From Oligoflexia bacterium (GTDB taxonomy: Bacteria > Bdellovibrionota > Bacteriovoracia > Bacteriovoracales > Bacteriovoracaceae), in assembly GCA_015231955.1 (NCBI GenBank), contig JADGAN010000003.1, forward strand, positions 87,908-151,907: a stretch of DNA of 64,000 nucleotides, in the 5' to 3' direction. The notes under the pieces were generated by a model that did no database searches, had not been told where the DNA came from, and was given only the letters and a program-made list of their open reading frames with translations. The position numbers and the translations under genes are program-made. Below are positions 36,949 to 63,950 of the stretch, piece by piece (the first letter of the stretch is position 1; each line of letters starts with the position of its first letter).

Positions 36949-36975
36949 CTTATAAAATCCCCTTCTTTGTGATTC

Positions 36976-38055: not shown

Positions 38056-38499
38056 TTAATTCTCCGATTTATTATTATTAACGTGCTTGATTTCAATATT
38101 ATTTTTAACAGTAGGTTTGCTAAAAGCGGCCTTATGAGGAGTGCGATAGAAGTTACCTTTGAAATCGATCAAGATTCCTTTGATTTTTAAACCAAAGAGA
38201 TCGGCAATCTCATTTTCATAGATAAGCGCGCACATAAAGATATCTGAGATACTGGGAATTTCTGTGCTCTCTACTGCGGCCGCATCGATAGTGAGTTTTA
38301 TTCCTTCATAAAGATAATCTTTATCGAAGGCGTAGATCACTTCAAAGGTCTCTTTGATTTTCGAGCAACCAATATGTACCATACGGTAGTCGCGCTTCTT
38401 ATACTCTTGCACTTTTGCTTTGAGCTCCGCCACTGTCGTTGGATGCACAATTTGATCTTGGAAGAAGTTTTGAAAGTTGGGTTTATCCGAAATATTCAT
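38056..38499 (-). CDS. echD: Ech-type hydrogenase NuoC-like subunit
   Basis: 147 residues, related to the 30-kDa (NuoC) subunit of complex I: the family motif YENEIADLFGLKIKG is followed by DFKGNFYRTP. It is smaller than NuoC, as in Ech enzymes. It holds the large and small subunits together. Its first base overlaps the last base of echC. The C-terminal Asn-rich tail (NNNKSEN) is not conserved. Confidence 0.86.
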   Translation of the reverse strand: MNISDKPNFQNFFQDQIVHPTTVAELKAKVQEYKKRDYRMVHIGCSKIKETFEVIYAFDKDYLYEGIKLTIDAAAVESTEIPSISDIFMCALIYENEIADLFGLKIKGILIDFKGNFYRTPHKAAFSKPTVKNNIEIKHVNNNKSEN

Positions 38500-38960
38500 T
38501 AGCAGGCTCCTTCACCGGAACAAGAGCAGTTACCACCACAATCTTGCTCTCTTTTCTTTTCAAGTATTCCAAGTGCTTTGACGACACCATCGATAATTGC
38601 CTCTGGCCGTACAGCACACCCTGGAACATAAACATCAACTGGGATGACTTTATCTACTCCACCATAAACATTATAGCAATCTTTAAATATCCCACCAGAG
38701 GTTGCGCAAATTCCCAACGCCAGTACGACTTTGGGGTTTGGCATCTGCTCGTAGATGTTTTTTACGATGCCGATATTTTGCTCATTGATAGAGCCAGTGA
38801 TTAAAAAAATATCTGCATGCTTAGGATTGCCTGTGTTAATAATACCAAAGCGTTCAACATCAAAACGAGGCATGAGAGCAGCTAAGACTTCAATGTCGCA
38901 ACCGTTGCAACTAGAACCATCGTAATGAATAACCCATGGGGATTTTGATAAGACTGACAT
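38499..38960 (-). CDS. echC: Ech-type hydrogenase small subunit (NuoB-like)
   Basis: 153 residues. The proximal 4Fe-4S ligands are visible: C18 and C21 (SSCNGCDIE), C85 (GICATSGG) and C115 (PGCAVRP), as in NuoB and group 4 small subunits. The last 13 residues form an extra Cys-rich tail with C141, C145, C147 and C153. It lies 45 bp after echB. It receives electrons from the ferredoxin subunit. Confidence 0.9.
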   Translation of the reverse strand: MSVLSKSPWVIHYDGSSCNGCDIEVLAALMPRFDVERFGIINTGNPKHADIFLITGSINEQNIGIVKNIYEQMPNPKVVLALGICATSGGIFKDCYNVYGGVDKVIPVDVYVPGCAVRPEAIIDGVVKALGILEKKREQDCGGNCSCSGEGAC

Positions 38961-39005
38961 TGGAAGTTAATCCTCCTGTACTATTATGTACGGTAACAAT
39001 GATTA

Positions 39006-39893
39006 CTAAAATGAAAACAGCGCTGGAAATTGTTTAACAAGGTAGAGATAAACAATATTTCCACCACCTAAAATCAAAGTCATCCACCAAGATGACTTAA
39101 GCAAGAGGTCCCATTTTACTCGAGAAAAGGAGTTATCGACAAAGATTTCTAAAGCATATGTTCCAATTGCTACAAGCACTGCTACCACAGGCCATGGAGC
39201 AAAAAAGATGTAGATAATACCAAGAAGTAAAATGTTTTCATACCAGTGGGCGAGTTCAATTAGCGCTAGGTTTGGCCCTGAAAACTCTGTTGTAATTCCC
39301 TTTACCAACTCTTGGTGGGCGTGGTGAGAAGCGGACAAATCAAAGGGGCCTTTTCTTAATTTAATGGTTAAGACATAGAGATAGCCAAAGAAGATCCCTG
39401 GTAGCTGAAAGAAGAGAGGATCAGGACTATTTAAGATGTCTTGAATTGAGAAAGAGCCGATGGCCATATACACACCCACTGGAATCAGCAGGATCATGGG
39501 TTCATAAGCAAGCATTTGAATCAGCTCTCTCTCTGCTCCAACAAAACTATAAGGTGATCCAATTTGATAAGCAGCAAGTACCAAGAAAACGCCGCTTAGT
39601 GAAAAGACAAACATCACAATTAAGAAGTCTTGTTGTGCAAAGAAAAGTGCACCGGTAATAATCATAGAGATTAAGAGACCGATCACAAAAATGCTTTGCG
39701 ATTTTAAAACTAAAAGTTGCTCTTTGGAAAAGAGTTTTCCCACATCGTAGAAGGGCTGTAGAATGGGCGGCCCTACCCTTGATTGTATACGTGCGGTTAA
39801 TATCCTATCAAATCCAGAGAGAAGCCCACCTAAAATTGGTGCTAAGACGATGTAGAGTAATCCTTGTAATAATACCGACATTCTTTCATCCAC
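39006..39893 (-). CDS. echB: Ech-type hydrogenase membrane subunit (NuoH-like)
   Basis: 295 residues with about eight membrane helices. NuoH/EchB landmarks: FDRILTARIQSRVGPPIL followed by QPFYDVGKLFSKE in the N-terminal third, GAERELIQMLAYEPM in the middle, and FDLSASHHAHQELVKGITTE. It anchors the soluble arm and forms part of the ion path. It lies 4 bp after echA. Confidence 0.9.
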   Translation of the reverse strand: MDERMSVLLQGLLYIVLAPILGGLLSGFDRILTARIQSRVGPPILQPFYDVGKLFSKEQLLVLKSQSIFVIGLLISMIITGALFFAQQDFLIVMFVFSLSGVFLVLAAYQIGSPYSFVGAERELIQMLAYEPMILLIPVGVYMAIGSFSIQDILNSPDPLFFQLPGIFFGYLYVLTIKLRKGPFDLSASHHAHQELVKGITTEFSGPNLALIELAHWYENILLLGIIYIFFAPWPVVAVLVAIGTYALEIFVDNSFSRVKWDLLLKSSWWMTLILGGGNIVYLYLVKQFPALFSF

Positions 39894-39897
39894 CTTT

Positions 39898-41829
39898 TTA
39901 CTTTAAAGTTTGAAATACGAAAAAGCACATCATGACAAAAGTTATTAATGAGAGTGCAAGCCCAATCTTTGTCCATGCCTCTTCTGCAAAAAAGTTATTC
40001 AAATAGTAGTTTCTTAACTGAATATCCACCGTCTTTAGTGGGTTCTTGTATTGCCTACCATCATTGACATTGGCGCCACTTAGGTAAGGAGCAACCATGC
40101 GTGTACCTCTGCCAACTTTGATAAAAGCAGCAGCAGCATACGGTAAGAGGAAGAGTACAATAAGGATCAATATCATTGCGGAAAGGGTCCAGGCGTCGAG
40201 TGGAAAGTTGATATTGTATTGAGAGAGCAGATAGGGTGACAACACATAATCGGAAATGTAAGGGATACAGATGATGGAAATAATCGTGAAGATCCCAAGA
40301 GGATAGAGTGCACTCCACTCAAAAACAGAGATGTGCTTGGTGTGTTTTAAGTGTGGGTTTGCAGGAGAGGTTTGTAGGATTTTACCCATCCACTTGCTCC
40401 AGTAAAAGATAGTGGCCGAGCTACCAAAGACGATGGCCAGCACGAGGAGTGGAAAGGAGTCCAGCACTGCTTTGAGCACTACCCATTTGCTGATAAGAAG
40501 TGCAAAGGGGGCGAGGAACATGCCGGCCATTCCAACAATTAAGAGGAATGATAGTTGTGGTAAGCGATCAAACAATCCATCCATCATCTCAATCTCACGG
40601 CCATCGATTTGATGTTCAACCACTCCAACGCCAAGAAAGAGGAGACCTTTGGAGATTGCATGGAAGAGGATGATGGCCATTCCCGCCCAGACTGCGGTGG
40701 CCGATCCAATACCGGCGCATAAGACAATAAGTCCAAGGTTGGCAATAGTAGAGTAAGCAAGTAATGCTTTGGCATTTTGCCTGGAGATACAAAGAAAAGA
40801 GGAGATCAGAAAGCTGATTCCACCGATGGTCGCCACAGCAATTCCAAGAGTGGTATTTTCAAGTGCAGGAGAGAGTTTTATCAGCAAGAACACTCCCGCT
40901 TTAACCATGGTACTGGAGTGAAGAAGAGCGGAAACAGGTGTTGGTGCAACCATTGCTCCAAGAAGCCAGGAAGAGCAAGGAACTTGTGCCGACTTGGTGA
41001 AGCCAGCGATTGCAAGCAGAAGAATTGGCAACATATAGCCAGCTTTTCCTTGGGTTACAAGATCATTAAGTCCCAGCGCCCCATTACTTTTAAAGAGAAA
41101 GACGATTCCCAGAAAAAAAGCAACTCCACCAACCAAGTTGAAAGCTAAAGCACGGAAAGCGTTATTGATCGACTCAGCATCATTTTTGTATTTTATGAGA
41201 AGGAAGGAGCAAAGAGTGGTGACTTCCCAGAAGAGGTGTAACCAAAGTAGGTTATTGGAGATAACGAGTCCAAACATTGCAGCTAAAAAGAGAAAGAAGA
41301 TAAAGAAGAAAAAGGGAGTTGAAGCCTTTAGTGCTGGATAGTGGTGGTTAAACTCTTCCATGTATCCATTGGCGTAAAGAGTGATTAAACCTCCGATTAC
41401 CCCAATAATAAAGATCATGAGTACAGAAAAGTGATCAACGTAAAAGGGTGCTTGAGCGAAAAGGTTACTGGCCACTCCTCCGGCCACCGCCTCTTTGATC
41501 ATCATTTCCAAGTAGACTCCAATGGCCAACTGTGCCAGTGCAATTCCTAAGATTAAGAACCGTTTGTGCTGCACACTCCATATAACAATAAGTAGACTGA
41601 TTGCCAGCTCAATGTAGAAGAGAGCGTGCTGCTGCAATGATGTAAAGCTCACTTCGCGTGCAAGCGAATCGAGTGTTCCAAGCGGCAAAAACGAGATGAC
41701 AATCGTGAGTCCAACAATGAACAAAGAAAAGATTGTAACCATAATCTTTTGCAAGGAGTTTCCCCTGCAGATGAGCATGAGTACGGCCATAATTAGTGGT
41801 AACAGGACAAGTAAAGAAACTAATAACAT
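39898..41829 (-). CDS. echA: Ech-type hydrogenase ion-translocating subunit (NuoL/Mrp-like)
   Basis: 643 residues, about 16 hydrophobic segments. The proton_antipo_M core carries WEVTTLCSFLLI with the conserved Glu, FTKSAQVPCSSWL with a conserved Lys, and PTPVSALLHSSTMVKAGVFL. It pumps H+ or Na+ in the energy-converting complex. It is the first gene of echA-B-C-D-E-F. The 185-bp upstream region contains the palindromes GAAGTGCACTTC (41913-41924) and GTTATTACGATAAC (41938-41951), candidate regulator sites. Confidence 0.9.
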   Translation of the reverse strand: MLLVSLLVLLPLIMAVLMLICRGNSLQKIMVTIFSLFIVGLTIVISFLPLGTLDSLAREVSFTSLQQHALFYIELAISLLIVIWSVQHKRFLILGIALAQLAIGVYLEMMIKEAVAGGVASNLFAQAPFYVDHFSVLMIFIIGVIGGLITLYANGYMEEFNHHYPALKASTPFFFFIFFLFLAAMFGLVISNNLLWLHLFWEVTTLCSFLLIKYKNDAESINNAFRALAFNLVGGVAFFLGIVFLFKSNGALGLNDLVTQGKAGYMLPILLLAIAGFTKSAQVPCSSWLLGAMVAPTPVSALLHSSTMVKAGVFLLIKLSPALENTTLGIAVATIGGISFLISSFLCISRQNAKALLAYSTIANLGLIVLCAGIGSATAVWAGMAIILFHAISKGLLFLGVGVVEHQIDGREIEMMDGLFDRLPQLSFLLIVGMAGMFLAPFALLISKWVVLKAVLDSFPLLVLAIVFGSSATIFYWSKWMGKILQTSPANPHLKHTKHISVFEWSALYPLGIFTIISIICIPYISDYVLSPYLLSQYNINFPLDAWTLSAMILILIVLFLLPYAAAAFIKVGRGTRMVAPYLSGANVNDGRQYKNPLKTVDIQLRNYYLNNFFAEEAWTKIGLALSLITFVMMCFFVFQTLK

Positions 41830-50113: not shown

Positions 50114-50752
50114 TCAATGTCTATTGAAAAAGCTCAAATACTCTTTTGCGGCCAAGTGGGGATGAGATGCAGTCCAGATTCCACGGATCACTCCAATACA
50201 ATCAACTCCAGTCTCCAAAACGTTTCGCAAGTTTAGTGGAGTTATTCCTCCGATGGCCACAATAGGCAAATCGGTCTCTTGCAGGCAGTGCCTTAATAAA
50301 TCTGTACCAACAATGGGATCGGGAATTTTTTTACAGTCGGTTGCGTAGATAGGCCCAACTGAGAGGTAATTGACATTACTACTTTGCTTGTATTTTTGAA
50401 AATCTTGAGCATTATGGCAGGATACACCGAGCATGCGATCTTGCCCGATAATTTTTCTGATATCTTCCACCTCAAAATCGCGAGGGCCAATGTGCATACC
50501 ATCGGCATCACAAAGAACGCAAATATCGGGCCTGTCGTTGACGAAGAAATAGGCCCCATGCTCTCGAGTAATAGCACGAATTCTTCGGGCCCAAAGCAGG
50601 TGATCGCGATCGCAAAGATCCTCTTTCGCACGAAATTGGAAGATGCGTATCCCTGCAGAGAGAATCTCGATAAGGGTGTGTTCAAATTTTTGCATATTGG
50701 GGTGATCACGTAGGCCCCCTACCACATAGACGCCTGAAAAAATATTGCTCAT
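50114..50752 (-). CDS. thiE: Thiamine phosphate synthase
   Basis: 212 residues, TIM barrel. Landmarks: IFQFRAKEDLCDRDHLLWAR, FVNDRPDICVLCDADGMHIG and LSVGPIYATDCKK. Joins the thiazole phosphate and pyrimidine diphosphate to give thiamine phosphate. It is the last gene of a five-gene thiazole operon and starts 6 bp after thiS. Confidence 0.9.
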   Translation of the reverse strand: MSNIFSGVYVVGGLRDHPNMQKFEHTLIEILSAGIRIFQFRAKEDLCDRDHLLWARRIRAITREHGAYFFVNDRPDICVLCDADGMHIGPRDFEVEDIRKIIGQDRMLGVSCHNAQDFQKYKQSSNVNYLSVGPIYATDCKKIPDPIVGTDLLRHCLQETDLPIVAIGGITPLNLRNVLETGVDCIGVIRGIWTASHPHLAAKEYLSFFNRH

Positions 50753-50758
50753 CGAAAA

Positions 50759-50965
50759 TTAGCCTCCATCAACCATAGTTAATATTTCAATTTCATCGTG
50801 TTCTTCAACGAAGGTGTTGATGAAATCTTTAGCAAGAATAATAGTACGATTTTTTTCAATAACTACTCCATGATTAGAAATAGCAAGCGCAAGTAGCAAC
50901 TCGCAAAGATTTAGAGAGCGAGGTAGTTTGGTTTTTTTACCATTAAGGGTGATTACTATTTCCAA
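50759..50965 (-). CDS. thiS: Sulfur carrier protein ThiS
   Basis: 68 residues with the beta-grasp fold pattern ([11 protein letters not shown] at the start, EEHDEIEILTMVDGG at the end). The terminal Gly-Gly, needed for adenylation by ThiF and thiocarboxylate formation, is intact. It overlaps thiH by 23 bp. Confidence 0.9.
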   Translation of the reverse strand: MEIVITLNGKKTKLPRSLNLCELLLALAISNHGVVIEKNRTIILAKDFINTFVEEHDEIEILTMVDGG

Positions 50966-52004
50966 GGAAGACTCCTTTGTTTAATTCCATTTGCCAATCT
51001 TTTGTATGGAGATCGAATCCAAAACGTGCAAGCGATGCTGCCATTTCTGCAAAAGAGCGGTGGTCAGAGATATTGAATTGCTTTAACTCTTCATGGGCGC
51101 AATCATTGCTATTGCTATATCCTCCAGGAGCAGTCATCGATTCCACACTCAAATGGGTGATACAAATGCGTAGCAACCCATCTCGCATTTCTGGGCGTTC
51201 GCGTGTCGATAACAGGATTGGCATTTCCGGAAAGCATAAACGAAAAGCGATCAGCGTTCGTGTAAAGTCGATATCACTTAGGGGAAAATCTCCGGCAATC
51301 CCCCCTTCTGCACTGTTGATCCTCGGAATGGAGAGTGAAAATTGTACATCCCAATAGTTTTGCTTAATAAAAGAGAGGTGTTCGAAGAGCGCCTTGGCAT
51401 CATAGTCAATCGGGGCCAGTCCACCTAAAATTCCTAAGGTGACCTTTTTAAAGCCGGCCTTGATTGCTCGTTCAATACTGTGGATGCGATAGTGGTAATC
51501 ACTCTTCCTGCCAGCAGTATGATACTTTTTATATTGCTCTTGATGATAAGTTTCCTGATAGAGTACAAAGCAGTCGGCACCAGCATTTAAAAGTTCCAGC
51601 ATGAGCTGATCTGAAATTGATCCAAACTCCACACTAATTGCTTGCATTCCAATCCTTGTTGCGAGCGCAACAGATTCAACTAAAAGCTTGTGATACTTTT
51701 CATTATTCACTTCCCCTGCCACTAAAAGTACATGGCGGTATCCTCGTTTATAAATATAGAGCAGCTCTTGCTCTATTTCTTTTGGCAAGAGTGTTTTGCG
51801 TAGGTGAGTATTGTTCTTATTAAACCCACAATAGGTGCAAGAGTTTTCACAAAAATTGGAAATGTAGAGTGGGATATAGACGCCTTTGCTCTTGCCAAAT
51901 CTTTCTAGAGTTAAGAGGCGTGCCTGATCTGCCTCCTGCTCCATTTGCTCAAGAGAAAAAGGGTCTTTATCAAAGGGGAAAAGAGTGCTCACGGTTTTGC
52001 TCAT
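50943..52004 (-). CDS. thiH: 2-iminoacetate synthase (radical SAM) ThiH
   Basis: 353 residues. The radical SAM Cys triad is in [13 protein letters not shown] (CxxxCxxC). [13 protein letters not shown] and [13 protein letters not shown] are typical of ThiH. It cleaves tyrosine to dehydroglycine for the thiazole ring. Using ThiH rather than the O2-dependent ThiO is compatible with life at low oxygen, in line with the hydrogenase. It overlaps thiG by 35 bp. Confidence 0.92.
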
Positions 52005-52800
52005 CTGTTGTTGGAGTGTTGCTATAGAGAAAACCTAGCAAGGGCGAAGAGGCCTCTGCAGATTTTTTGCTGGCCGGAAGCCCGATCTCATAGGCCATTC
52101 TTCCTGCGGCGGTGGCCATCTTAAAAGCACAAGCAAGGGTAATGGGATCTTCTGCAATGGCGATGGCCGTATTGACTAAAACCGCATCGGCACCGATCTC
52201 CATCGCCAGAGCAGCGTCACTCGGTCTGCCAATCCCTGCATCCACCACCACGGGGATGGATGCATTTTCAATGATGATTTCTAGCATTTCACGCGTCTTT
52301 AATCCACGATTGGTTCCAATAGGTGCTCCTAGGGGCATCACCGTTGCAGTACCCACCTCCTCTAACCTTTTTGCAAGTAAGGGATCGGCATTGATATAGG
52401 GAAGAACAACAAAGCCATCGGCCACAAGCTTAGTACACGCTTCTAGTGTTCCTATGGGATCAGGAAGCAGGTGGTGTGGATCTGGTACAACTTCGACTTT
52501 AATCCAATTGCTTCCTGTGAGTGCACGGCAAAGGTGAGCAATGCGAATCGCCTCTTCCGCATTTCTGGCCCCAGAGGTATTGGGAAGCAATTGGATATTA
52601 TTGGGAATATAACTTAAGATATTGCTTTTTTGTTCCTGAGTTTTACTAAGGTCAATTCGTCTCAACGATACAGTGACAATTTCGCACTCTGATTGCAAGA
52701 TGGCAGACTTCATCACCTCAAGTGAAGGAAATTTTCCTGTGCCAATCATTAAGCGATTATTAAATTGCTTACCACCGATGCTAAGCTCTTTTCTTATCAT
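51970..52800 (-). CDS. thiG: Thiazole synthase ThiG
   Basis: 276 residues. Landmarks: [18 protein letters not shown], the catalytic Lys in [19 protein letters not shown], and [20 protein letters not shown] followed by [10 protein letters not shown]. It builds the thiazole ring from DXP, dehydroglycine and ThiS thiocarboxylate. It overlaps thiF by 4 bp. Confidence 0.94.
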
Positions 52801-53528
52801 AAAACCTCCGATTTGCTACAACGAGAACAACGATGAGTTATTGTTATTTTTTTTGTTAAAACTCTCATAAGATCACAGTAGAGCAAAATATTTTTCCACT
52901 CATCAAGGCCGTTCCTGGTTAGAAATTGCACACCTGCTAGTGCTTGCAGGGTAGAGGTGAGTGTGGCAGTAAGGCCAAGAGTTCCTGTGTGCTCACTTTT
53001 TCTTGGGGGCATGGGCATGAACTCTTGTATGCAGCGTAGGCAATGTCCACCCTCTGGCCAGTAGAGGAATACTTGACCATAGATGTTGTATGCAGAAGCA
53101 AAAACGTAGGGGCGTTTTACTGCATAGAAAAAATCTGCAAGCAGAATTTTAGTTTCAAAGGCATCGGTACAATCAAAGACTAAATCGTAGTTTTGTAATT
53201 GATGAATATTGTTATCGGCAATTTTTTCTTCTTTGGCCTTAAGTTTGATGTGTGGGTTTAGCCGAGATGCCTCACGAATAGCACATAAGGCCTTACTTTT
53301 TCCAATATCGTCATAGCGATAGAGGAGTTGACGTTGCAAATTGCCTTCACTGACCACATCGAAATCCCAAAGATCGATCACTCCTACACCTAAACCGGAA
53401 CATTGCATGAGTAGATTGTGGCCCAGCCCTCCGGCCCCAATAATGGCAATGTTCTTTTGTAAAAGCTCTTCTTGAGACTTTGCGTTTGGAATAAGCAGTG
53501 TGAGATTCTTTTCAAAAAAAATATCCAT
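52797..53528 (-). CDS. thiF: ThiF-type sulfur-carrier adenylyltransferase
   Basis: 243 residues. Nucleotide-binding [12 protein letters not shown], the [15 protein letters not shown] loop that positions the carrier, and two CxxC zinc pairs (GHCLRC; RCSRCS). It adenylates ThiS; MoeB is excluded by the operon context. It leads the operon. I looked for a TPP riboswitch in the 130 bp upstream and saw no THI-box core. Confidence 0.9.
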
Positions 53529-53659
53529 GACCTGCTATAAACCCCCTTCTTAAAGTGTAGGAACCGTAGCATATATAATGGAGATATGCAATCAAGGTCC
53601 AGTATAGGTTTCTCGAGAATGAGAAGAGTGAGAAGAATTAAGAAGCAGGAGTATTGCCG

Positions 53660-54475
53660 ATGGTGTGTAAAATTTGTGGAGCGAAACAGAAAGAGTGGTT
53701 TTCTACTAAAGTATTACAAAAGTATGAGGTTCGTTACTATTTTTGTGAAGAGTGTGGTTTTCTTTGCACTGAAGAACCTTACTGGTTAGCGGAGGCATAC
53801 TCTTCTGCCATTGCAGACACCGATGTAGGATTGCTATCAAGGAATAATATCAATTGTAGAATTCTTAGCAATATCATTTACTATCTGTTACCAAAGAGAG
53901 GGCGTAATCAAATTTTTGTTGATGTCGCAGGAGGCATGGGAGTGCTAACTCGTTTGATGAGAGATGTGGGCTTCCATTTTTACTGGAGTGATAAGTATGC
54001 AGAAAATATTTTTGCTAAATCGTTTGAGTATGCTGGTGATGTTTTTTATAAAGAGAAAAAAGAAATTTTTGCTCTGACTGCATTTTCTTTTCTTGAACAT
54101 TTAGTTGATCCAAAAGCTTTCATCAAAGAAGCTATACAAAAGCACTCAACAAAAACCATAATCTTTACGATGGATATTTTTAATGGGGTTCCACCTTCTA
54201 CGGATTGGTGGTACTATAGTTTTAAGACGGGGCAGCACATCTCTTTTTTTCAGGAAAAAACCCTGAAAGAAATGGCAAAAAATCTTAATTTGTATCTCTA
54301 TTGGAGTAAAGATTTTTATATTATGTCCGAATATGTGCTGAGTAATACGATATTGAAGTTCTGTACGGGGTTGCTTTCACACTTTTTGTTTTTGAGAGCA
54401 AAAAAGGGAACGAAGTCGCTATTACCTAATGATTATGATTATCTCTTGCGATTAGGTGAGGATGATGGGGCCTAG
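53660..54475 (+). CDS. SAM-dependent methyltransferase with N-terminal zinc ribbon
   Basis: 271 residues from the ATG at 53660, eight bases after an AGGAG. Residues 1-42 have two CxxC pairs (CKICG; CEECG) forming a zinc ribbon. A class I methyltransferase fold follows: FVDVAGGMGVLTRLMRDVG as the SAM loop, AFSFLEHLVDPKAFI, and GQHISFFQEKTLKEMA, typical of sugar or C-methyltransferases related to methyltransf_11/23. It overlaps the next gene. It may act on a cell-surface glycan or on the product of the downstream cluster. Confidence 0.75.
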   Translation: MVCKICGAKQKEWFSTKVLQKYEVRYYFCEECGFLCTEEPYWLAEAYSSAIADTDVGLLSRNNINCRILSNIIYYLLPKRGRNQIFVDVAGGMGVLTRLMRDVGFHFYWSDKYAENIFAKSFEYAGDVFYKEKKEIFALTAFSFLEHLVDPKAFIKEAIQKHSTKTIIFTMDIFNGVPPSTDWWYYSFKTGQHISFFQEKTLKEMAKNLNLYLYWSKDFYIMSEYVLSNTILKFCTGLLSHFLFLRAKKGTKSLLPNDYDYLLRLGEDDGA

Positions 54476-55505
54476 TGAACATAAGAAGGATTCTTTGAGT
54501 ACGTTTAATTCAAACGAAGTCTACTTTGCTCAAACACCAGTTGCCTATTTTTTTTATAATAGGCCAGATCTTATAAGGCAAACATTTCAAGAGATCGCTA
54601 AAGCAAAACCAAAAAAACTTTTCTTGATTGCAGATGGGGCCAAAGATGCTGACGATGAAAAATTTTGCAAGATAAGCAGAGAGGTAGTAAAGAGTGCGAT
54701 TGATTGGCCTTGTGAAGTTTATAATAATTTTTCATCCACACATTTAGGTTTAGGAGAGAGAGTTGCTAGCGGCATTGCTTGGGTATTTGAAAAGGTGGAA
54801 GAGGCCATTTTTATCGAAGATGATGTTTTAGTTCATAACTCCTTTTTTCAGTATTGTGATCTGCTGCTCGATTATCATCGTAATAATCTGCAAGTGATGA
54901 TGATCTCTGGATGTAATCTTTTTCCCTCTCTCTCCAATGAGACTAACAATGTCTCTTCTTATCTCTTTTCTCGTTATCCTATGGTTTGGGGATGGGCCAC
55001 ATGGAAGAGGGCCTGGAGTAACTATGATCTGAAGATGCAAGAGTGGCCTCATTGGAAAAATCGTTCCGATTTAAGTGATTACTTTGTGAACAAAGAAGAA
55101 GAGCGCACCTTTCAATTTAATTGGGAGCGAGTCTACTCTTATGGATTTGATACCTGGACTTTTCAATGGGATTTTTGTCGAGTGATTGCTCGAGGATTAG
55201 GACTTATCCCTAAGAAAAATTTAGCTGTGAATATTGGTTTTGGAGAATCTGCTACCCACACCAAAGACAGCAGCAGTTTTTTAGCTCATTTGCCGTTGCA
55301 AACGATGGAGTTTCCTCTTCATCATCAGCGTGAAGATGCGATCTTACATGATCAGGCTTACTTTAAAAAAATGATTAAACGTGCAAGTTTCTTGCAACGA
55401 GCGCTTCTTCGTATCTCCCAGCTTTTTTCTTGCAGGAGTGAGACAAAACCGAAAGTGAAAGCAAGAGCAAGCACAGATCTCACCCAATCGGCCAGGCCTC
55501 TTTAA
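54465..55505 (+). CDS. GT-A-type glycosyltransferase, HlpA-like
   Basis: 346 residues from the ATG at 54465 (GTG 54456 and ATG 54462 are alternatives). Start of the GT-A fold is PVAYFFYNRPDLIRQTFQEI; the metal-binding acidic motif is AIFIEDDVLVHNSFF; then MVWGWATWKRAW and GFDTWTFQWDF, typical of proteins loosely called HlpA-like. The donor and acceptor are unknown. The last ~35 residues are basic. It overlaps the methyltransferase upstream; an 87-bp gap separates it from the radical SAM gene, so it may belong to a different unit. Confidence 0.72.
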   Translation: MGPSEHKKDSLSTFNSNEVYFAQTPVAYFFYNRPDLIRQTFQEIAKAKPKKLFLIADGAKDADDEKFCKISREVVKSAIDWPCEVYNNFSSTHLGLGERVASGIAWVFEKVEEAIFIEDDVLVHNSFFQYCDLLLDYHRNNLQVMMISGCNLFPSLSNETNNVSSYLFSRYPMVWGWATWKRAWSNYDLKMQEWPHWKNRSDLSDYFVNKEEERTFQFNWERVYSYGFDTWTFQWDFCRVIARGLGLIPKKNLAVNIGFGESATHTKDSSSFLAHLPLQTMEFPLHHQREDAILHDQAYFKKMIKRASFLQRALLRISQLFSCRSETKPKVKARASTDLTQSARPL

Positions 55506-55592: not shown

Positions 55593-56552
55593 ATGAGCAA
55601 TGAAGTAGCGTTAATTTCAGAGGGATTTCTTGGTTCTTGTTGGTATGGCAACTACCACTACCTAGAGCCATGGATAGGTTGCAATAACGACTGTATTTAC
55701 TGTTATGCAAGGGCAAGGGGTACTGTTAAAAACTCCCTTGAGCGTTTTCAAGATAAGGCCTTTGCCCACCCACGTCCTCTGTATAGCGATCATGAGGAGC
55801 TTTGTACTAAAATTAAAAGTGAAATTTCCAAACACACGGCCAAAACGTTAAAGCTTTGTCGCTATACCGACTTTTTCACTCCCTCCATGCAGCAAGAAAA
55901 TCTGCCAGCAAAAATCTTGCAAACCATTTGCGAGGAGACTTCCGTTCAAAGGATCATTATCACGACTAAGTGTTGTCCAGATCAGAACTCTATCGAGATA
56001 ATGAAGCGATTCCCAGAGCATTTTTCAATGAATCTTGCACTTTTACCGAGAGAGGATCACCTTTTGATGCCATCATTAAAGATGGATGAGGCCTTAGAAC
56101 AGAAGATGCTGACAACTGCAAAAATGATCCAAGATTTAGGGGTAAAAACAACGATTCACCTTGATCCCATTAGCTTTAGTGTTATTTCCAAAAGCGCACA
56201 ATGGGAAAGCTTCCTTGCTAAGATTAGAAGTGCTGGATTATCACGAGTGATGTTTTCCTATTTGGTTTTAGATCCGAACATCATGGAAGAGATTTCAAAG
56301 ACAATCTCTAAAGATTACTCGGAAGAGCTCTTCTCTTTGTTTGATTTTACCAAGGCATTTGATTACGACTACACTGATGAGTCACTATGGTATATGAAGC
56401 AAGAGATTCGGCAGCAGCACCTGGAGATGATCTCAAGTTTACTGACAAAATTGGAATTTGACTTTACATTATGTTCACTCAAAAGCGCCAAAGGTGGAGT
56501 TGATGCTAAAAAGGCCGCTTGTCGAGTTTGCAATGGTGATTTTTATGCCTAA
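55593..56552 (+). CDS. Radical SAM enzyme, spore-photoproduct-lyase-like family
   Basis: 319 residues from the ATG at 55593, nine bases after AAGGAG. The 4Fe-4S triad is C30/C34/C37 in EPWIGCNNDCIYCYARARG, the arrangement of COG1533/SplB-like proteins. More Cys occur at the C-terminus (LCSLKSAKGG and CRVCNGDF), possibly an auxiliary cluster. It is unlikely to repair spore photoproduct in this organism. It overlaps the ATP-grasp gene by 8 bp, so the two are probably made together and act on one pathway. Confidence 0.82.
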   Translation: MSNEVALISEGFLGSCWYGNYHYLEPWIGCNNDCIYCYARARGTVKNSLERFQDKAFAHPRPLYSDHEELCTKIKSEISKHTAKTLKLCRYTDFFTPSMQQENLPAKILQTICEETSVQRIIITTKCCPDQNSIEIMKRFPEHFSMNLALLPREDHLLMPSLKMDEALEQKMLTTAKMIQDLGVKTTIHLDPISFSVISKSAQWESFLAKIRSAGLSRVMFSYLVLDPNIMEEISKTISKDYSEELFSLFDFTKAFDYDYTDESLWYMKQEIRQQHLEMISSLLTKLEFDFTLCSLKSAKGGVDAKKAACRVCNGDFYA

Positions 56553-57672
56553 GAAAATATGGATTCCCAATTTAGATGATCTTGGCCCCTCTTTTGATCC
56601 AGATATTGCCAGTGCCGCAGAGAGTCGCTATCTATGGTTTTTAAATGAGGGGGATCTTGCCGTTTTAAGTCGAGCTACGAGCGACTCTTTTTTGAAGTAT
56701 TTATCGAAGTTTATTCCCTCTCTTGCCTCAGAGAATATCTTATTTCCTATTAGCACCAAGAGTGGTGAGAGAAAGTTAAAGCTTGTGAATAGTATTTTGG
56801 CGGATCGATCACTTCTGCAGAAACTAAAAGAGCTTGCAAAACAAAGAACAGATCTGTACCTCGCCTCCTATATCGCGTCTCCTAGTATTTTGCAACTTTC
56901 AGAAGTAACGGGAATACCTCTGGATCCTTTACAAATGCCTACTCGTCCCTTCATCAGTGGAGGACTCACCTACGTTTTTAATTCTAAGAGCAAAATGAAA
57001 CTTGTTGCCAACGAGTTAGCAATTCCCTTTATCGCCTATAGTGTTGCCAACTCCTATATTGAGCTAGAGAAATCAGTTTACCAATTGATAAAATCGCATA
57101 ACCCCCATAAACTCATTCTAAAAAAAGCACTCTCAGGAGGTGGCCATGGAAATTACTCAGGCACGCCAGAAAATGTGCTGTCCATCGCCCAAACTTGGTA
57201 CCGTGAGGAGTGTGAGGTGGCAGAGGAGATTTTGATAGAGCCCTATATGAATTTTAAAGAGATTATTGGCGCTCTTGCATATGTGAGTGAAGATAATATT
57301 TATTTTCATGGGATCGATAAGCAGCTCATTGAAAACGATGGATGGAGTGGGATGATCTATCCTTACATTAACGAAAAGTGGGGAGAGCAAATAAAAAATT
57401 GGACACTTAAATTTGCTAGTAGATTGCAAAATGCTGGAGGAAGGGGATGGTTTAATTTAGATTTTGCAACCTATCTTGATTCGAAGGGGTGTGAGCAAGT
57501 GGTGTTTATGGAGTCTAATTTTCGTTGTAATGGTTTTGCCTTAATGTTGGAAATCGCTAAAAAAACGCAGCAAAAAGGAAGAATATACTACTCCAGCACG
57601 CTAAAAAAAGAGCAAGGAAACTGCTTCCTACTTGATGAGTACTCTTCTCAGTATGTCTCTTTTGAGCATTAA
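56545..57672 (+). CDS. ATP-grasp ligase, PGM1/peptide-ligase-like
   Basis: 375 residues from the ATG at 56545, inside the end of the radical SAM gene. An N-terminal pre-ATP-grasp domain (about 1-145) is followed by ATP-grasp motifs: LILKKALSGGGHGN (P-loop-like glycine stretch), EILIEPYMNFKEI, and the metal-binding strand RGWFNLDFATYLD with VVFMESNFRCNG. Such enzymes form amide bonds between a carboxylate and an amine via acyl phosphate. Substrates are unknown. It lies 12 bp before the MFS gene. Confidence 0.8.
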   Translation: MPKKIWIPNLDDLGPSFDPDIASAAESRYLWFLNEGDLAVLSRATSDSFLKYLSKFIPSLASENILFPISTKSGERKLKLVNSILADRSLLQKLKELAKQRTDLYLASYIASPSILQLSEVTGIPLDPLQMPTRPFISGGLTYVFNSKSKMKLVANELAIPFIAYSVANSYIELEKSVYQLIKSHNPHKLILKKALSGGGHGNYSGTPENVLSIAQTWYREECEVAEEILIEPYMNFKEIIGALAYVSEDNIYFHGIDKQLIENDGWSGMIYPYINEKWGEQIKNWTLKFASRLQNAGGRGWFNLDFATYLDSKGCEQVVFMESNFRCNGFALMLEIAKKTQQKGRIYYSSTLKKEQGNCFLLDEYSSQYVSFEH

Positions 57673-57684
57673 TCGATTATACCT

Positions 57685-58899
57685 ATGAATAGTTTCAAAC
57701 AGAAAAGTAACAAATTTGAAGCACTCCTGCTTGTTACTAGCTTTGTGACCATCTTTGCATTCGTGGCCATTGATAATGTAATCTCTCCTCTGATTCATTT
57801 GCTTGAAAAATTTTATTTTGTTGCGGCCACGGATATTTTAAAGTTAGTCTCCATTTGCAATGCAGGAGTTGTTGTTGGAACTTATTTCGGCCCCATCTTC
57901 ATTGGTCGCTTTGGAGTTGTTCGCACCTATCTTGGCAATGTTGCTGTTTTTTTGATGACCTTGATGATCTTTTTGTGGGTAAGGAATTTTGAATGGGCGC
58001 TTGCACTGCGGTTTATTTTGGGCATTGGTAGTGGCGTCTTTGCAACACTCTATTGGTGGTTTACCTTTCATGCAGCAATCTCTTCAAAAAGTAAAGACTA
58101 TATGATTTCCATTTTGCTTGCAACGAGATCACTCGCGATTGCCTTAGGAGTTCCGATGCTGCTTTTCTTGAGTATTTATGGGGGTATGGGTTGGCAAAGT
58201 GGCTTTATCGTATTGGGGATTTTGATGTTGATGATAAATTTTATTTTCTTTAACCAGCTTGAAATGACTAAAGATGCAGGGAAAAGCACGCCTCAACACC
58301 AGCATCAACAAGGGTATATCGTACTAACAAAAAACAGTAACTCTTTGCTTTTTTATGCAGCGATTTTTTTCGTGGCCATCCCCTATTTTGGTTTTTATTC
58401 CTTTAGTGGATATTGGTATTTAGTAAGACTTCATTTTACAGAGAATAATTTATCGGTACTCTTTTTTATAATAGGGGCAATTGAGGTTGTCGTAACCTTC
58501 ATTTGCCCCTATTGCTATAAAAAAAAATCGTCAAGGCCGATGATGAACTTAGGGATAGTATTGATGATTCTCTCCTATCTGATTTTTTTTCTTGTTAAGG
58601 AAAATGTGCTTTTATCCAGTATCGTTATTATCTTCTCTCTTATCGGTAACCGTGTATTAATGTTTGCTTTTACTAAGAATATCCCTAACATTTTTTCGTT
58701 TTTGGAGAACAAGGCCATTGCGGCCTCTGCTGCAACCTTGGTATCGTGGGGAGCTTTTTCTGTGATAGCGTGGGTGCAATCACTAGTGATCGCCAATTAC
58801 TCACCAGTGGCCGTGTGGCAAATTATGTTTTGGGCATTAATCATTGGATCTCTACTAACACAAATTTTAATGAAGCGAGTGAGTGAAAAAAATGGATAA
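57685..58899 (+). CDS. Major facilitator superfamily transporter
   Basis: 404 residues with 12 hydrophobic segments in two halves and a cytoplasmic loop near 195-215. The helix 2-3 region FGPIFIGRFGVVRTYLGN is the usual Arg-containing MFS loop. It is located between the ATP-grasp and methyltransferase genes and overlaps the latter by 8 bp, so it may export the cluster product or supply a precursor. Confidence 0.85.
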   Translation: MNSFKQKSNKFEALLLVTSFVTIFAFVAIDNVISPLIHLLEKFYFVAATDILKLVSICNAGVVVGTYFGPIFIGRFGVVRTYLGNVAVFLMTLMIFLWVRNFEWALALRFILGIGSGVFATLYWWFTFHAAISSKSKDYMISILLATRSLAIALGVPMLLFLSIYGGMGWQSGFIVLGILMLMINFIFFNQLEMTKDAGKSTPQHQHQQGYIVLTKNSNSLLFYAAIFFVAIPYFGFYSFSGYWYLVRLHFTENNLSVLFFIIGAIEVVVTFICPYCYKKKSSRPMMNLGIVLMILSYLIFFLVKENVLLSSIVIIFSLIGNRVLMFAFTKNIPNIFSFLENKAIAASAATLVSWGAFSVIAWVQSLVIANYSPVAVWQIMFWALIIGSLLTQILMKRVSEKNG

Positions 58900-59572
58900 T
58901 AATTTTAATCAAATGTGGAATCAACAAGAATATGTCGCTAGGTATAACCAAGTTTATCCACTCTTAGATCAAGATTGCCAACTCTATTGTGATCTTTTGC
59001 AAATAAAGATGGATGATCACCTTTTGGATCTAGGTTGTGGAGAGGGGTATTTTGTAAAAAAATTGCTAGAGATGGGGATCAAAAAAATCACTGTAGTAGA
59101 TGTTTCAGGAGAACAGCTTCTGCGTTTAAGAGAAAAATTAACACCTCAAGAAGAGCAAAAGCTAACAATTATAGAGGGGGATTTTGAAAGCATCAGCTTT
59201 CCTCAAGAGCAAGTAACCAAGGTTTTTGCAAGGGCATCTCTTCATCACTTGGATCAATTAAAAAAACGCCTCTTCTTCCAAAAATTAAAAAGTGTAACAA
59301 AGAAAAGTGCTCTATTCCTTTTACACGATATGGTTTTTGATTTCCCCAAAGAAGAGCTAAATCAGCAAATGCCAAGATTGTTGCAAGAGGCATCTGTTCA
59401 TTATGGAGATCGATGGATACTCAAAAAAGAGGATATCATTGCCACCTGGTTTGATGAGTTTCCTGAAGATTTTAAAACATGGATTAGTGTATGCAAAGAG
59501 GGGGGGCTAGAGTTAGTCGGTCGCAAACGCATTACCAGCTTTCTTTCAATCCTACTGTTTTCCAAAATTTAA
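58892..59572 (+). CDS. Class I SAM-dependent methyltransferase
   Basis: 226 residues from the ATG at 58892 (GTG three codons upstream is an alternative). SAM motif I is LLDLGCGEGYFVKKL, followed by VVDVSGEQLLRLREKL and the ARASLHHLDQLKKRLFF motif, then a C-terminal helical part. The methylated substrate is unknown. Its 3' end overlaps by 21 bp the convergent KAS III-like gene, placing the two operons tail to tail. Confidence 0.83.
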   Translation: MDNNFNQMWNQQEYVARYNQVYPLLDQDCQLYCDLLQIKMDDHLLDLGCGEGYFVKKLLEMGIKKITVVDVSGEQLLRLREKLTPQEEQKLTIIEGDFESISFPQEQVTKVFARASLHHLDQLKKRLFFQKLKSVTKKSALFLLHDMVFDFPKEELNQQMPRLLQEASVHYGDRWILKKEDIIATWFDEFPEDFKTWISVCKEGGLELVGRKRITSFLSILLFSKI

Positions 59573-60559
59573 AATGGCCGCAGCAGTATAGTCGCCAGCA
59601 TGAGAAAAACCAGCAAGTAAAATTTTTGCTTTATCTTTGATCACCCCTTTACGAATTGCCAGATCAAGATTTATAGGGATTCCTGCTTGAAAAAGATTGG
59701 CATAATCTTCAAAGGTGTCAAAATGTTTTTCTGCGGGAACCTGGATCGATTCGCGCCAATTTCTTAAGAAGAAGGGATTGGGTTGGTTCGTGATTAAAAG
59801 GTCAATCTCCTTTGCTGAGTTCTTGGACTCTTTTAAAATTTCATGCATGACCACAGGAACAATACGATTGCCTCTCATGATTACGGCCGAGATTTTGCCC
59901 TCACTAAAATCGACAGAGCCTGGACTTATGCTTGGTTGCCACCAACGGCTTTCATCCTCTCTGGCAATGGTCATATCCGTGGAGTATTCGGGATAATTTT
60001 TAACTAAAATATGTTCAACTTGATTATCACCCTCATCGTGAAAGAGCGCAACACTGGCACCATCGCCAGGGATGGCCGCTTGGGCCTTGTCATTGACCCC
60101 TGGGAGGGAAAAAATCCTACCTGCCGCAGTCTGTCCCACGCATATAAGAATACGCTTGATATTTTTCTGCGGGTTATTGATTAAGATTTGTGCTAACTCC
60201 ATTAAGGTAATGAAAGAGACACAGCCGCCATTGTGAACATCAAAAATAAAGCGTGGTTTTAAGTTTAAACGTTTTGCCAGAATTGCTCCACAGCCAGTAA
60301 AGGGAAGCTCTGGGATGGAGACGTTGGTGAGAATGGCATCCACCTCCTCGCGTAGATCTATTCCCTTCTCCTCGGCCATTTTGCGAGCGGCCCTTTCAAA
60401 AAGATCGACTTCACCCTCATTTTGCTCAACGTGACGACGGTATTTAGTGCCTTTGAACATCTTGCTGTTACTGTCGCTGATTCCTGCAAAAAAAGAGTTA
60501 TCCACAATTTTTTCAGGGAGTGCAGAAGCGATTGCCATTAAGGAGAGTTTTTTATTCAT
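59552..60559 (-). CDS. KAS III (FabH)-like enzyme with His to Asn active-site change
   Basis: 335 residues, thiolase fold. The nucleophile is C113 in VHNGGCVSFI. Aligning with E. coli FabH (C112, H244, N274), the HQAN block reads NQPN here (N258 replaces His), while N288 in YANLFQAGIP matches the Asn. GDGASVALFHDEG is also family-like. A true FabH needs the His for decarboxylation, so this is more likely an acyltransferase or a modified condensing enzyme for a special metabolite. It overlaps the SRPBCC gene by 4 bp. Confidence 0.82.
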   Translation of the reverse strand: MNKKLSLMAIASALPEKIVDNSFFAGISDSNSKMFKGTKYRRHVEQNEGEVDLFERAARKMAEEKGIDLREEVDAILTNVSIPELPFTGCGAILAKRLNLKPRFIFDVHNGGCVSFITLMELAQILINNPQKNIKRILICVGQTAAGRIFSLPGVNDKAQAAIPGDGASVALFHDEGDNQVEHILVKNYPEYSTDMTIAREDESRWWQPSISPGSVDFSEGKISAVIMRGNRIVPVVMHEILKESKNSAKEIDLLITNQPNPFFLRNWRESIQVPAEKHFDTFEDYANLFQAGIPINLDLAIRKGVIKDKAKILLAGFSHAGDYTAAAILNFGKQ

Positions 60560-61230
60560 TGGCGAACCCCTAAAATATTAGGCCCCATGGGTAACTTGTT
60601 TTTATAGCGAAATTCTAAAATTGCTTTTAGGTTTTGCATTTCAGCGGCGTGGCCTGCATAAAACCAATCCCAAAGATCTCCTACCCAGAGGCGATTAGCA
60701 GGGGCTTTCTCTGGATAAGGGTTATTCAGATAGTAGGGGTGACGACAGTTGGTCCATAATACTACCGATCCGGGTTTCTTTAACACAAGCTCTGCGGGAA
60801 TGATTCTGTTTAAGTAGATCATCCACAGATCCTCTCCTTGATCCCAAGCGCAGTGATAATCAACGGTCATGGCATCTTTATTGCTGATAGTTTTACAATA
60901 AATCTTCGTGTGACCACTACCCACTTTATCTACACCCTCATGCACCTCTGGAAGATGACAGGGCTTAAAATCGCGAACACTAAAGGTCCACTCCTCAAGA
61001 GAGATGGTCTCTTTCATATACTCAAAGACAACCTCTGGTGGACAGTCGATATACTCTTCAACAGTGCAATACTGCCCATAAACATCGTTATGAGGATAGA
61101 CTGCATGTGTGGTCTCCATCATATCGGCATGAAAATTATCCAGGGGGTAAGTTTCAAAGCGACGAACTCCTGGAATTGTTGATAAAAATTGGTGATCAGT
61201 TCTTTCTGGAATAGTAGTTTCAAGTGACAT
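60556..61230 (-). CDS. SRPBCC (START/Bet v 1-like) family protein
   Basis: 224 residues from the ATG at 61228-61230, with GAGAGGAG nine bases upstream; a TTG three codons earlier is possible. The central EEYIDCPPEVVFEYM is the START-like beginning strand, preceded by about 60 residues of N-terminal extension. Many Trp/Tyr residues suggest a hydrophobic pocket. Such proteins bind or cyclise lipids or polyketides. It lies between the carboligase and KAS III-like genes, with 2 bp and a 4-bp overlap. Confidence 0.72.
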   Translation of the reverse strand: MSLETTIPERTDHQFLSTIPGVRRFETYPLDNFHADMMETTHAVYPHNDVYGQYCTVEEYIDCPPEVVFEYMKETISLEEWTFSVRDFKPCHLPEVHEGVDKVGSGHTKIYCKTISNKDAMTVDYHCAWDQGEDLWMIYLNRIIPAELVLKKPGSVVLWTNCRHPYYLNNPYPEKAPANRLWVGDLWDWFYAGHAAEMQNLKAILEFRYKNKLPMGPNILGVRQ

Positions 61231-61232
61231 TG

Positions 61233-63005
61233 TTAACAACTCCTCTCTGTTGAGATTGATAATGGGGAATACTTTATTTTTAGTTGGCGAAATGCGGGAT
61301 TATTGATCTCTTTTGCAAGACAATCATTAAAGGGTAAGAATTCTGGCATTTCATCAATATTGATTTTAAAAACTAAAACAGTTGGGCCATGAAAGGGACG
61401 ACTTTTTAAAACTTCTCTCAGAGCAAAAAATTCTTCGTAGGTTGCTGCTGAAAAGGCGCGAATGCGTTCTCCAAACATTGCTTGCAGTGAAGCTGCGATA
61501 TTGACATCATCGAAACGATTAATCAGAGAATCGTTGTTTAAAAAGAGTTGATCTCGAGTGACACACATACCGTGGCCACTATTATCAGCAATCACAAACG
61601 TGATGGGCAAGTGATATTCAACTGCTGTGTGGATTTCCATTCCATTCATATAGTAGGCACCATCGCCAGCAAGAGCGATGGTTTTTTGATTATTGCCCAT
61701 ATATGCACCAATGGCAGCCCCAAAGCTATACCCCATGCCACCCATACCGAGTGCTATGCTAAAAGTGGTGTTACTGTTACGCTTGATTTGGATCTCTCGA
61801 ACAGCATTGCAAACAGCATTTCCTGCATCGATCACCCAATTAATGGATTCTTTGGAATCACTTTGTAGTGAGTTTAAGAGATCGCCAATGTGATTCACTG
61901 AAATTTGCCCTTGCAAATTTTCTAAGTCCAAGGGAGTAGTCAAAGTAGTTTTTTGATCGGGGCAACCGAGGGGAGTAGAGGGATCAGTAGCTTTTATATT
62001 TAAGCTGGAAATCCATTTAGCAATCGCTCTACCAAGGGAAGGAACGTTGATGTAGATGCCATTAGCGCCCTGCCAGTAGCTAACAGTAGTATTGATGATA
62101 GTAACAAAAGATTCGTCGCGCTTGAAAAAATCTTCTAAACCATAACGTTCCATAAAAGAGAGCTTGGTTCCAATCAGTAGAAAATTTTTTGTTTGTCCTA
62201 AAAGCTTAGAGATTTCACTGCGACTCTTTGTCATCACTCCAGCAATTCCTCGATAGCGAGGGTGATCAGAAGGAAAGGCGGCCTTTCCTTCGGGGGTGAC
62301 TAAAACATTGGCTTGCATTATTTCCGCAAGCATGATCGCTTTAGCAACAATATTTTCTTGTACAATCTCTTCACCAAAGACAATGGTGGTCGGGCCAACG
62401 ATTGTAGGAAATACAATCTCCTCCAAAGGATTGATGGATCGGTTGCTGATAAGTCTTGGCCTAAAGTTGACTTTAGAGAGCACACTGTTTTGAATGTTTT
62501 TTGGCAAGATAATGGCGGCCGGGCGTCGATGGTAACGGATGGCAATCATGGATTCCGCCAAAGTATCCGCCATCTCATCGGGGGCAAGTACACGCTTGCA
62601 ATAGCACGTAACATTCGACAATAGTTTTTCAAGGTTGAGTGTGTGATTAATCCCGCTTCCATCCTGAAAAGCACCCTTTCCATCTAAGGAGGTAGGAGGG
62701 GCCCCGATAATGGCCAAGAGGGGAATATAGGAGTTGTAAGCCTCTCCTAGCGCGGGAACGATATTAAGGGCCGCTCCTCCTGAAGTAGTGAGCACAGCGG
62801 CCACTCTTCCACTACTCCTGTAATGGCCATCCGCCATTGTAGCAGCGCCACCCTCTTGTTTTGCTAGTATAAGGGTTGCGTTCGGCCGATTCGCAGGGCT
62901 TAGGGCAAAGAAGAGATCCTCTATGTTGGCCCCGCTTACTCCAAAGAAGTGCCTGATTTTTGCAGTATCTACAAGATAATTTGCTACAAAATCTACAAGT
63001 TTCAT
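61233..63005 (-). CDS. Thiamine-diphosphate-dependent carboligase (acetolactate synthase-like)
   Basis: 590 residues with the three-domain layout of the IlvB superfamily. The catalytic Glu is E51 in AKQEGGAATMADG, and the ThDP/Mg motif GDG (447-449) to N475 is intact (IALAGDGAYYMNGMEIH). It decarboxylates a 2-oxo acid and joins the aldehyde unit to another acceptor. No IlvN-type regulatory subunit or other branched-chain amino acid genes are nearby, so a special-metabolism role is likely. It is the first gene of the operon, with an AAGGAAA ribosome-binding site. Confidence 0.87.
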   Translation of the reverse strand: MKLVDFVANYLVDTAKIRHFFGVSGANIEDLFFALSPANRPNATLILAKQEGGAATMADGHYRSSGRVAAVLTTSGGAALNIVPALGEAYNSYIPLLAIIGAPPTSLDGKGAFQDGSGINHTLNLEKLLSNVTCYCKRVLAPDEMADTLAESMIAIRYHRRPAAIILPKNIQNSVLSKVNFRPRLISNRSINPLEEIVFPTIVGPTTIVFGEEIVQENIVAKAIMLAEIMQANVLVTPEGKAAFPSDHPRYRGIAGVMTKSRSEISKLLGQTKNFLLIGTKLSFMERYGLEDFFKRDESFVTIINTTVSYWQGANGIYINVPSLGRAIAKWISSLNIKATDPSTPLGCPDQKTTLTTPLDLENLQGQISVNHIGDLLNSLQSDSKESINWVIDAGNAVCNAVREIQIKRNSNTTFSIALGMGGMGYSFGAAIGAYMGNNQKTIALAGDGAYYMNGMEIHTAVEYHLPITFVIADNSGHGMCVTRDQLFLNNDSLINRFDDVNIAASLQAMFGERIRAFSAATYEEFFALREVLKSRPFHGPTVLVFKINIDEMPEFLPFNDCLAKEINNPAFRQLKIKYSPLSISTERSC

Positions 63006-63436: not shown

Positions 63437-63529
63437 CTTGTAGAGCGGGTGAATCGAGGTGGATATTGGGGGATTACTATTCATCGGGGGGAGAGAGTTG
63501 TTGATAAGACAACGCTCTCCTTTTTTTTT
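63437..63529 (+). ncRNA. Candidate small RNA ending in a strong intrinsic terminator
   Basis: A plus-strand terminator at 63490-63529 has no plus-strand gene in front of it within 3.9 kb, and a promoter-like sequence lies about 60 bp upstream. The region between contains no reading frame with a ribosome-binding site. It overlaps the last 2 bp of the hemerythrin gene on the other strand. Its function is unknown. Confidence 0.45.
63490..63529 (+). terminator. Strong intrinsic terminator, plus strand
   Basis: Stem GGAGAG-A-GTTGT / ACAAC-G-CTCTCC (11 pairs with one A-G mismatch) around a 7-nt loop (63502-63508), followed by nine T (63521-63529). The opposite strand lacks a T-run, so it acts only on plus-strand transcripts. 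Confidence 0.85.
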
Positions 63530-63950
63530 AAAGAGATTGCTTCTTCTTTTCTAAATAATACTCGGCAAATTTTCGATCCTCTTTTTGAATGTGGTTTAAA
63601 AACCAATCTTTCAAGAAAACGGTGAGTTCTTTAAATTTGCTTAGATTTTTTTCATTTTTTGAATTAGAAATAGAGTTATATTCTAAAATTTTCTTATTAA
63701 AATCATGGTGAAGATCTTTATGTGCATTTATGTTTGGCCAATCGATCTTTTTCATCTGTTGTTCTTCATAGGTGAAATGAATAATGGAATATTTTTTTAG
63801 GTCTTGAATCAACTCGAAAGCAACAAGCTCTTTTGGCTTTTTTCCATCTCCGATTTTAAGTAAAACATCTTCGATTATTTGTAAAAATCGAGTATGTTGC
63901 TCGTCAAGATTAGGAATGCCTATACGGTATTGTTCGGGAAGAGAATCCAT
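63528..63950 (-). CDS. Bacteriohemerythrin
   Basis: 140 residues, four-helix bundle with the di-iron ligand set visible: H in LDEQH, HFTYEE (His and Glu), HKDLHHDF (two His), and HIQKED near the C-terminus (His and Asp). It binds O2 in the cytoplasm, for storage, delivery or sensing; no extra signalling domain is attached. It is single, and its upstream region continues beyond the window. It could shield O2-sensitive enzymes such as the hydrogenase and radical SAM proteins encoded nearby (inference). Confidence 0.92.
   Translation of the reverse strand: MDSLPEQYRIGIPNLDEQHTRFLQIIEDVLLKIGDGKKPKELVAFELIQDLKKYSIIHFTYEEQQMKKIDWPNINAHKDLHHDFNKKILEYNSISNSKNEKNLSKFKELTVFLKDWFLNHIQKEDRKFAEYYLEKKKQSL

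Follow-up and report, generated by a model that had tools for sequence, protein, structure and literature searches.

We identified a carbazole-synthase-type gene triad in a 64,000-nucleotide stretch of DNA from an Oligoflexia bacterium (Bdellovibrionota, Bacteriovoracaceae; assembly GCA_015231955.1, contig JADGAN010000003.1, positions 87,908 to 151,907; hereafter, the window), which sits within a 5.6-Mb draft genome. The triad forms a tight operon on the minus strand (59552-63005) with genes for a thiamine diphosphate (ThDP) carboligase, an SRPBCC cyclase and a protein similar to 3-ketoacyl-acyl carrier protein synthase III (KASIII-like), and it represents a new setting for these enzymes and a divergent, widespread clade. 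Probably, this operon is the assembly line of a carbazole-type core and the plus-strand operon that abuts it tail to tail (55593-59572) is a small, independent pathway.

The triad and its relationship to carbazole synthases

In the described assembly of carbazoles, the aminotransferase CqsB7 converts tryptophan to indole-3-pyruvate, the ThDP enzyme CqsB3 couples it with pyruvate, the KASIII-like CqsB1 brings in an acyl thioester by a decarboxylative condensation, and CqsB2 serves as the SRPBCC cyclase (PMC7466098). The window operon encodes three of these four families (ThDP, KASIII-like and SRPBCC). The original prediction, made from the DNA alone, had suggested genes for a special metabolite derived from an acyloin or an amino acid, which we judge to be right, and knew of no described cluster with such a set; the ThDP, SRPBCC and KASIII combination is, however, that of CqsB3, CqsB2 and CqsB1 (PMC7466098).

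The central evidence comes from the cyclase gene (60556-61230, minus strand), a CqsB2/NzsI homologue. The predicted protein has no match in Pfam and none above cut-off in NCBIfam, and its earlier assignment to the SRPBCC family stands through CqsB2 rather than through a domain model. It matched CqsB2, the carquinostatin carbazole synthase (PDB 6ipv), with an E value of 1.5e-46 and 44% identity. CqsB2 was also the only natural protein that it matched in the PDB; all other matches were short and fell on "Cake" proteins, apparently repeat constructs made by design. Four of the five proposed catalytic residues of CqsB2 (Tyr144, Tyr172, His206 and Glu209) correspond to Tyr142, Tyr170, His197 and Glu200 in the window cyclase (counted from the TTG at 61239) and are invariant across 105 sequences. 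The likely start of the gene is the ATG at 61230, which has GAGGAG upstream and lies 2 bp from the stop codon of the ThDP gene; the cyclase and KASIII-like genes overlap by 4 bp. The closest cyclase homologue, approximately 76% identical, is an intact gene without a ThDP or KASIII neighbor (L006 8178-8870 in genome G062; also L030). That genome (84% complete) yielded no specific KASIII, and the gene is either a lone cyclase or the remnant of a lost triad.

The ThDP gene (61233-63005, minus strand; 590 amino acids) is CqsB3/NzsH-like and carries the N, M and C domains of TPP enzymes; its best PDB match is BbmA/CsmA, and residues Glu51, Asp448 and Asn475 are conserved. The KASIII-like gene (59552-60559, minus strand) was assigned from an ACP_syn_III_C domain, an alignment and a tree. 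These general family scores would also suit an origin in primary metabolism, with an acetolactate synthase and FabH-like genes in the operon. Such an explanation is extremely improbable, as we rejected the acetolactate synthase and FabH identities on model scores that all fell far under the cut-offs, the genome contains separate KASIII paralogues, the operon includes a dedicated CqsB2-type cyclase, and the cyclase gene occurs patchily, in 11 of 369 Bdellovibrionota genomes.

Distribution and gene company of the triad

We scanned for the cyclase in one genome per species and retained the best 80 of 492 relatives, most of the 492 not being inspected. Triads were present in Mycobacterium and its relatives, Nocardia, Streptomyces, Bdellovibrionota, Pseudomonadota (among them a contig assigned to a Legionella bin), Planctomycetota and Myxococcota, and the cyclase gene is also borne on plasmids of Nocardia, Rhodococcus and Tsukamurella. 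The genes were contiguous and on one strand in 93 of the 99 loci that contained all three; thus, their linkage in the minus operon exceeds chance adjacency. Among same-strand loci, the window order (ThDP-SRPBCC-KASIII) was found in 76 and SRPBCC-KASIII-ThDP in 16. Of 104 loci, 62 encoded an aminotransferase homologue within the retrieved stretch and 24 encoded a relative of one cytochrome P450. The Mycobacterium and Nocardia aminotransferases are 43-44% identical to the one in a cqs locus (L168, described below), and in the triad loci of Bdellovibrionota the enzyme belongs to a different aminotransferase subfamily. The recruitment of two aminotransferase types to the same triad favors a keto acid substrate derived from an amino acid.

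Other genes adjoin the triad in particular genomes. A fuller version of the operon is present in G014, where a JmjC/cupin gene (L008 11422-12324) follows the triad and P450 and aminotransferase genes lie upstream. A hemerythrin-domain gene adjoins the triad in the window (63528-63950, minus strand) and, separately, the cyclase of a Nocardia plasmid (L010 8154-8786). Thiamine genes (ThiE-, ThiH-, ThiG- and ThiF-like; 50114-53528, minus strand) are located approximately 8 kb from the ThDP gene and on the same strand, possibly by coincidence.

A divergent clade with two coordinated substitutions

For comparison with an authentic carbazole cluster we used L168, a locus among the retrieved Streptomycetaceae relatives. 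Over the part of CqsB2 covered by the PDB alignment, its cyclase shows 100% identity, and its genes (KASIII, cyclase, ThDP, squalene/phytoene-synthase-like, second KASIII, aminotransferase and NUDIX) agree with the described cqs cluster, indicating that the comparison was made with genuine cqs genes. The cyclase tree placed the window protein in a sister clade of CqsB2, with the two groups separated at 100/100. Similarly, a KASIII tree with FabH paralogues as the outgroup recovered the window clade and the CqsB1 group as sisters (100/100 for their union and 100/99 for the window clade), with a program warning of long branches meeting. Both window proteins therefore fall outside the characterized cqs clade.

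Further, the two groups differ at one site in each enzyme. Among the 98 loci read at both sites, 92 combine Asn in the KASIII with Asp in the cyclase, 6 combine His with Glu, and none is mixed; the former make up the sister clade and the latter are of the cqs type. Because the trees separate both groups, this perfect linkage probably reflects a single evolutionary split and not 92 independent events. One Streptomycetaceae genome (G502) carries a triad of each type, Glu/His and Asp/Asn, on a single contig (L171 and L174).

Proposed chemistry of the triad

The substrates, acyl chain, product and export of the triad are predictions. The ThDP enzyme would couple pyruvate with an aryl-pyruvate, probably indole-3-pyruvate. 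The KASIII-like enzyme may then acylate the coupled product, using a fatty acyl thioester and releasing CO2. The SRPBCC enzyme could fold the unstable intermediate onto the indole and aromatize it, giving a tricyclic carbazole that bears an alkyl side chain, in a 3,4-dihydroxy or ortho-quinone form.

Several observations weigh against a carbazole product. The Cys-His-Asn triad read in the KASIII of L168 is not matched in the window enzyme (Cys113-Asn258-Asn288), which by alignment keeps the Cys and Asn and replaces the catalytic His with Asn258, as does the entire clade. The fifth cyclase residue, Glu105 of CqsB2, is Asp104 in the window protein and Asp throughout the sister clade. Identities to the L168 enzymes are low (22% for the KASIII and 28% for the ThDP enzyme). 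No aminotransferase, acyl carrier protein (ACP) or P450 gene is adjacent in the window, the aminotransferases elsewhere in the genome are only distantly related (31% to the one from Bacteriovorax), and G079 likewise lacks an adjacent aminotransferase. Additionally, no locus with a known product could be identified in the Asp/Asn clade.

The two substitutions, present throughout the clade, indicate that the reaction may differ from that of the cqs enzymes. Without the KASIII His, a labile beta-keto acid could need less help with decarboxylation, or the condensation itself could be different. Less likely, though plausible, is that the window operon belongs to the carbazole synthase superfamily but makes something else, with a different keto acid (aryl or alkyl) or a non-decarboxylative acylation closing a ring that is not a carbazole quinone. 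A changed product would be consistent with the paired differences in the active sites, which fall on a long stem with good support, as well as with the mere 22% identity of the KASIII to CqsB1 and the different aminotransferase subfamily of the Bdellovibrionota. Yet the core residues of the cyclase are unaltered, actinobacterial loci of the same clade bear a cqs-type aminotransferase and, on chemical grounds, only indole appears to offer an obvious nucleophilic carbon at the needed position. We thus favor a carbazole-type core. A broader proposal, which we advance tentatively, is that the Asp/Asn clade forms a large branch, spread across phyla, whose paired changes mark an altered condensation and aromatization; many nontuberculous mycobacteria, and Bdellovibrionota as well, would then produce a class of arenes that is unassigned to any cluster.

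We also considered lipocarbazole as a product. The genus Tsukamurella includes a lipocarbazole producer, and a Tsukamurella plasmid carries a member of the clade (L012), but no sequence connects that locus to the compound, and we rejected the assignment. Lipocarbazoles are listed among the microbial 3-oxygenated carbazoles (PMC7466098).

The abutting plus-strand operon

The plus operon comprises genes for a radical S-adenosylmethionine (SAM) protein (55593-56552), an ATP-grasp ligase (56545-57672, from a corrected ATG at 56545), an MFS transporter (57685-58899; MFS_1) and a class I SAM methyltransferase (58892-59572; Methyltransf_25/11). They are separated by an 8-bp overlap, a 12-bp gap and another 8-bp overlap, respectively, and the last gene overlaps the KASIII-like gene tail to tail by 21 bp (59552-59572). 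Re-reading of the open reading frames confirmed the predicted positions of all seven genes, their tight spacing and the convergent overlap, and the ThDP (N, M and C), ACP_syn_III_C, PreAtp-grasp, MFS_1 and methyltransferase domains exceeded their Pfam cut-offs. The radical SAM call held in part: the protein has a CX3CX2C motif, an extra C-terminal Cys motif and a low-confidence model with a radical-SAM-like fold, but its Pfam score (20.1 bits) is below the 29.5-bit cut-off. The AlphaFold models of the radical SAM and ATP-grasp proteins (predicted local distance difference test scores of 58 and 52) are too poor for detail, and a fold search with the former returned only generic radical-SAM folds. 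The ATP-grasp protein scored 41.2 bits for PreAtp-grasp (PF18604; cut-off, 27.5) and in profile comparisons matched 8ynd (E = 3.9e-30) and PGM1 (E = 1.5e-14); it is, by its sequence, of the PGM1 peptide-ligase type.

The original prediction joined the two operons in one pathway, in which the triad would build a core that is then decorated by the radical SAM protein, ligase and methyltransferase and exported by the MFS transporter. Direct adjacency with the 21-bp overlap would fit such a pathway, as would the methyltransferases of other families that flank two other triads (L031 and L048), but convergent genes require no common transcript and the operons do not co-occur in any other searched genome (369 of the phylum and 33 with triads elsewhere). 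The radical SAM gene is present in 2 of the 369 Bdellovibrionota genomes (the window genome and G024) and the cyclase gene in 11, with only the window genome in common. In the 33 triad genomes the radical SAM protein gave one weak partial hit (Anammoxibacter, E = 2.8e-15), and no other triad locus has an adjoining radical SAM or ATP-grasp gene. Moreover, G024 contains together a related methyltransferase (29% identity), radical SAM protein (36%) and ATP-grasp protein (31%) without a triad. These counts and the stand-alone module led us to reject the seven-gene pathway, which we regard as improbable.

Plasmid searches with the ATP-grasp and radical SAM proteins gave no matches, and a search of 299 Pseudomonadota genomes, run without a positive control, found no radical SAM relative. 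The G024 module (L028) showed no MFS gene. Upstream of the radical SAM gene in the window (53654-55505, plus strand) are a methyltransferase gene and one for a Pfam-less protein, glycosyltransferase-like by eye, neither of which was seen in that module. The radical SAM protein, PGM1-like amide ligase, methyltransferase and exporter would thus constitute a second, independent pathway, perhaps to a modified dipeptide.

Other features of the window

A membrane operon (36559-41829, minus strand) encodes a NuoD/FpoD-like large subunit that retains the two cysteine motifs of [NiFe] enzymes, RICGIC and DPCISC, which suggests a [NiFe] hydrogenase of group 4. The stretch at 16703-18822 encodes a metal transporter of the CbiM type.

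Comparison with known systems

The PGM1 enzyme of pheganomycin biosynthesis and related ATP-grasp peptide ligases share the PreAtp-grasp and ATP-grasp domains of the plus-operon ligase but not its company of radical SAM, methyltransferase and MFS genes. For the triad, the scytonemin enzymes ScyA and ScyC offer a partial parallel, as a ThDP carboligase and a cyclase that act in an acyloin pathway from an aryl-pyruvate and have weak hidden Markov model matches to the window proteins. The window scores are, however, far under the curated cut-offs (17.2 against 400 bits for ScyC and 109.6 against 1000 bits for ScyA_rel), and we rejected this identity. To our knowledge, the scytonemin pathway has no KASIII step.

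The chlCz cluster for carbazomycin and chlocarbazomycin in Streptomyces tubbatahanensis, compared by its published list alone, includes ThDP, KASIII, SRPBCC and aminotransferase genes but also an ACP and FAD (flavin adenine dinucleotide) and SDR (short-chain dehydrogenase/reductase) oxidases (PMC10100901). The closest likeness is to the cqs and nzs clusters of Streptomyces (CqsB3/B2/B1 and NzsH/NzsI/NzsJ), which have the same three families in a tight operon and the same four cyclase residues; related actinobacterial loci also have the same aminotransferase family. The window triad differs in its separate clade, the KASIII Asn and cyclase Asp, its identities (44% for the cyclase, 22% for the KASIII and 28% for the ThDP enzyme), its phylum and its usual gene order. 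Its adjacent genes include no prenyltransferase, isopentenyl diphosphate (IPP) isomerase, ACP or second KASIII; L168 has the prenyltransferase, the IPP isomerase and the second KASIII.

We found no paper linking carbazole biosynthesis with Bdellovibrio or Mycobacterium, a weak negative, as subscription literature was largely outside the search. The same comparison that does away with a joint pathway of the two operons poses a testable question for the large Asp/Asn clade, namely whether its members make carbazoles and what roles the Asn and Asp play. Carbazole biosynthesis was worked out in Streptomyces, and a 2020 review noted that, in addition to actinomycetes, one myxobacterium and one cyanobacterium have homologous clusters (PMC7466098). 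The triad now extends to at least five phyla, with many representatives in Mycobacterium, and nearly all of the retrieved loci belong to the clade with the two coordinated substitutions.

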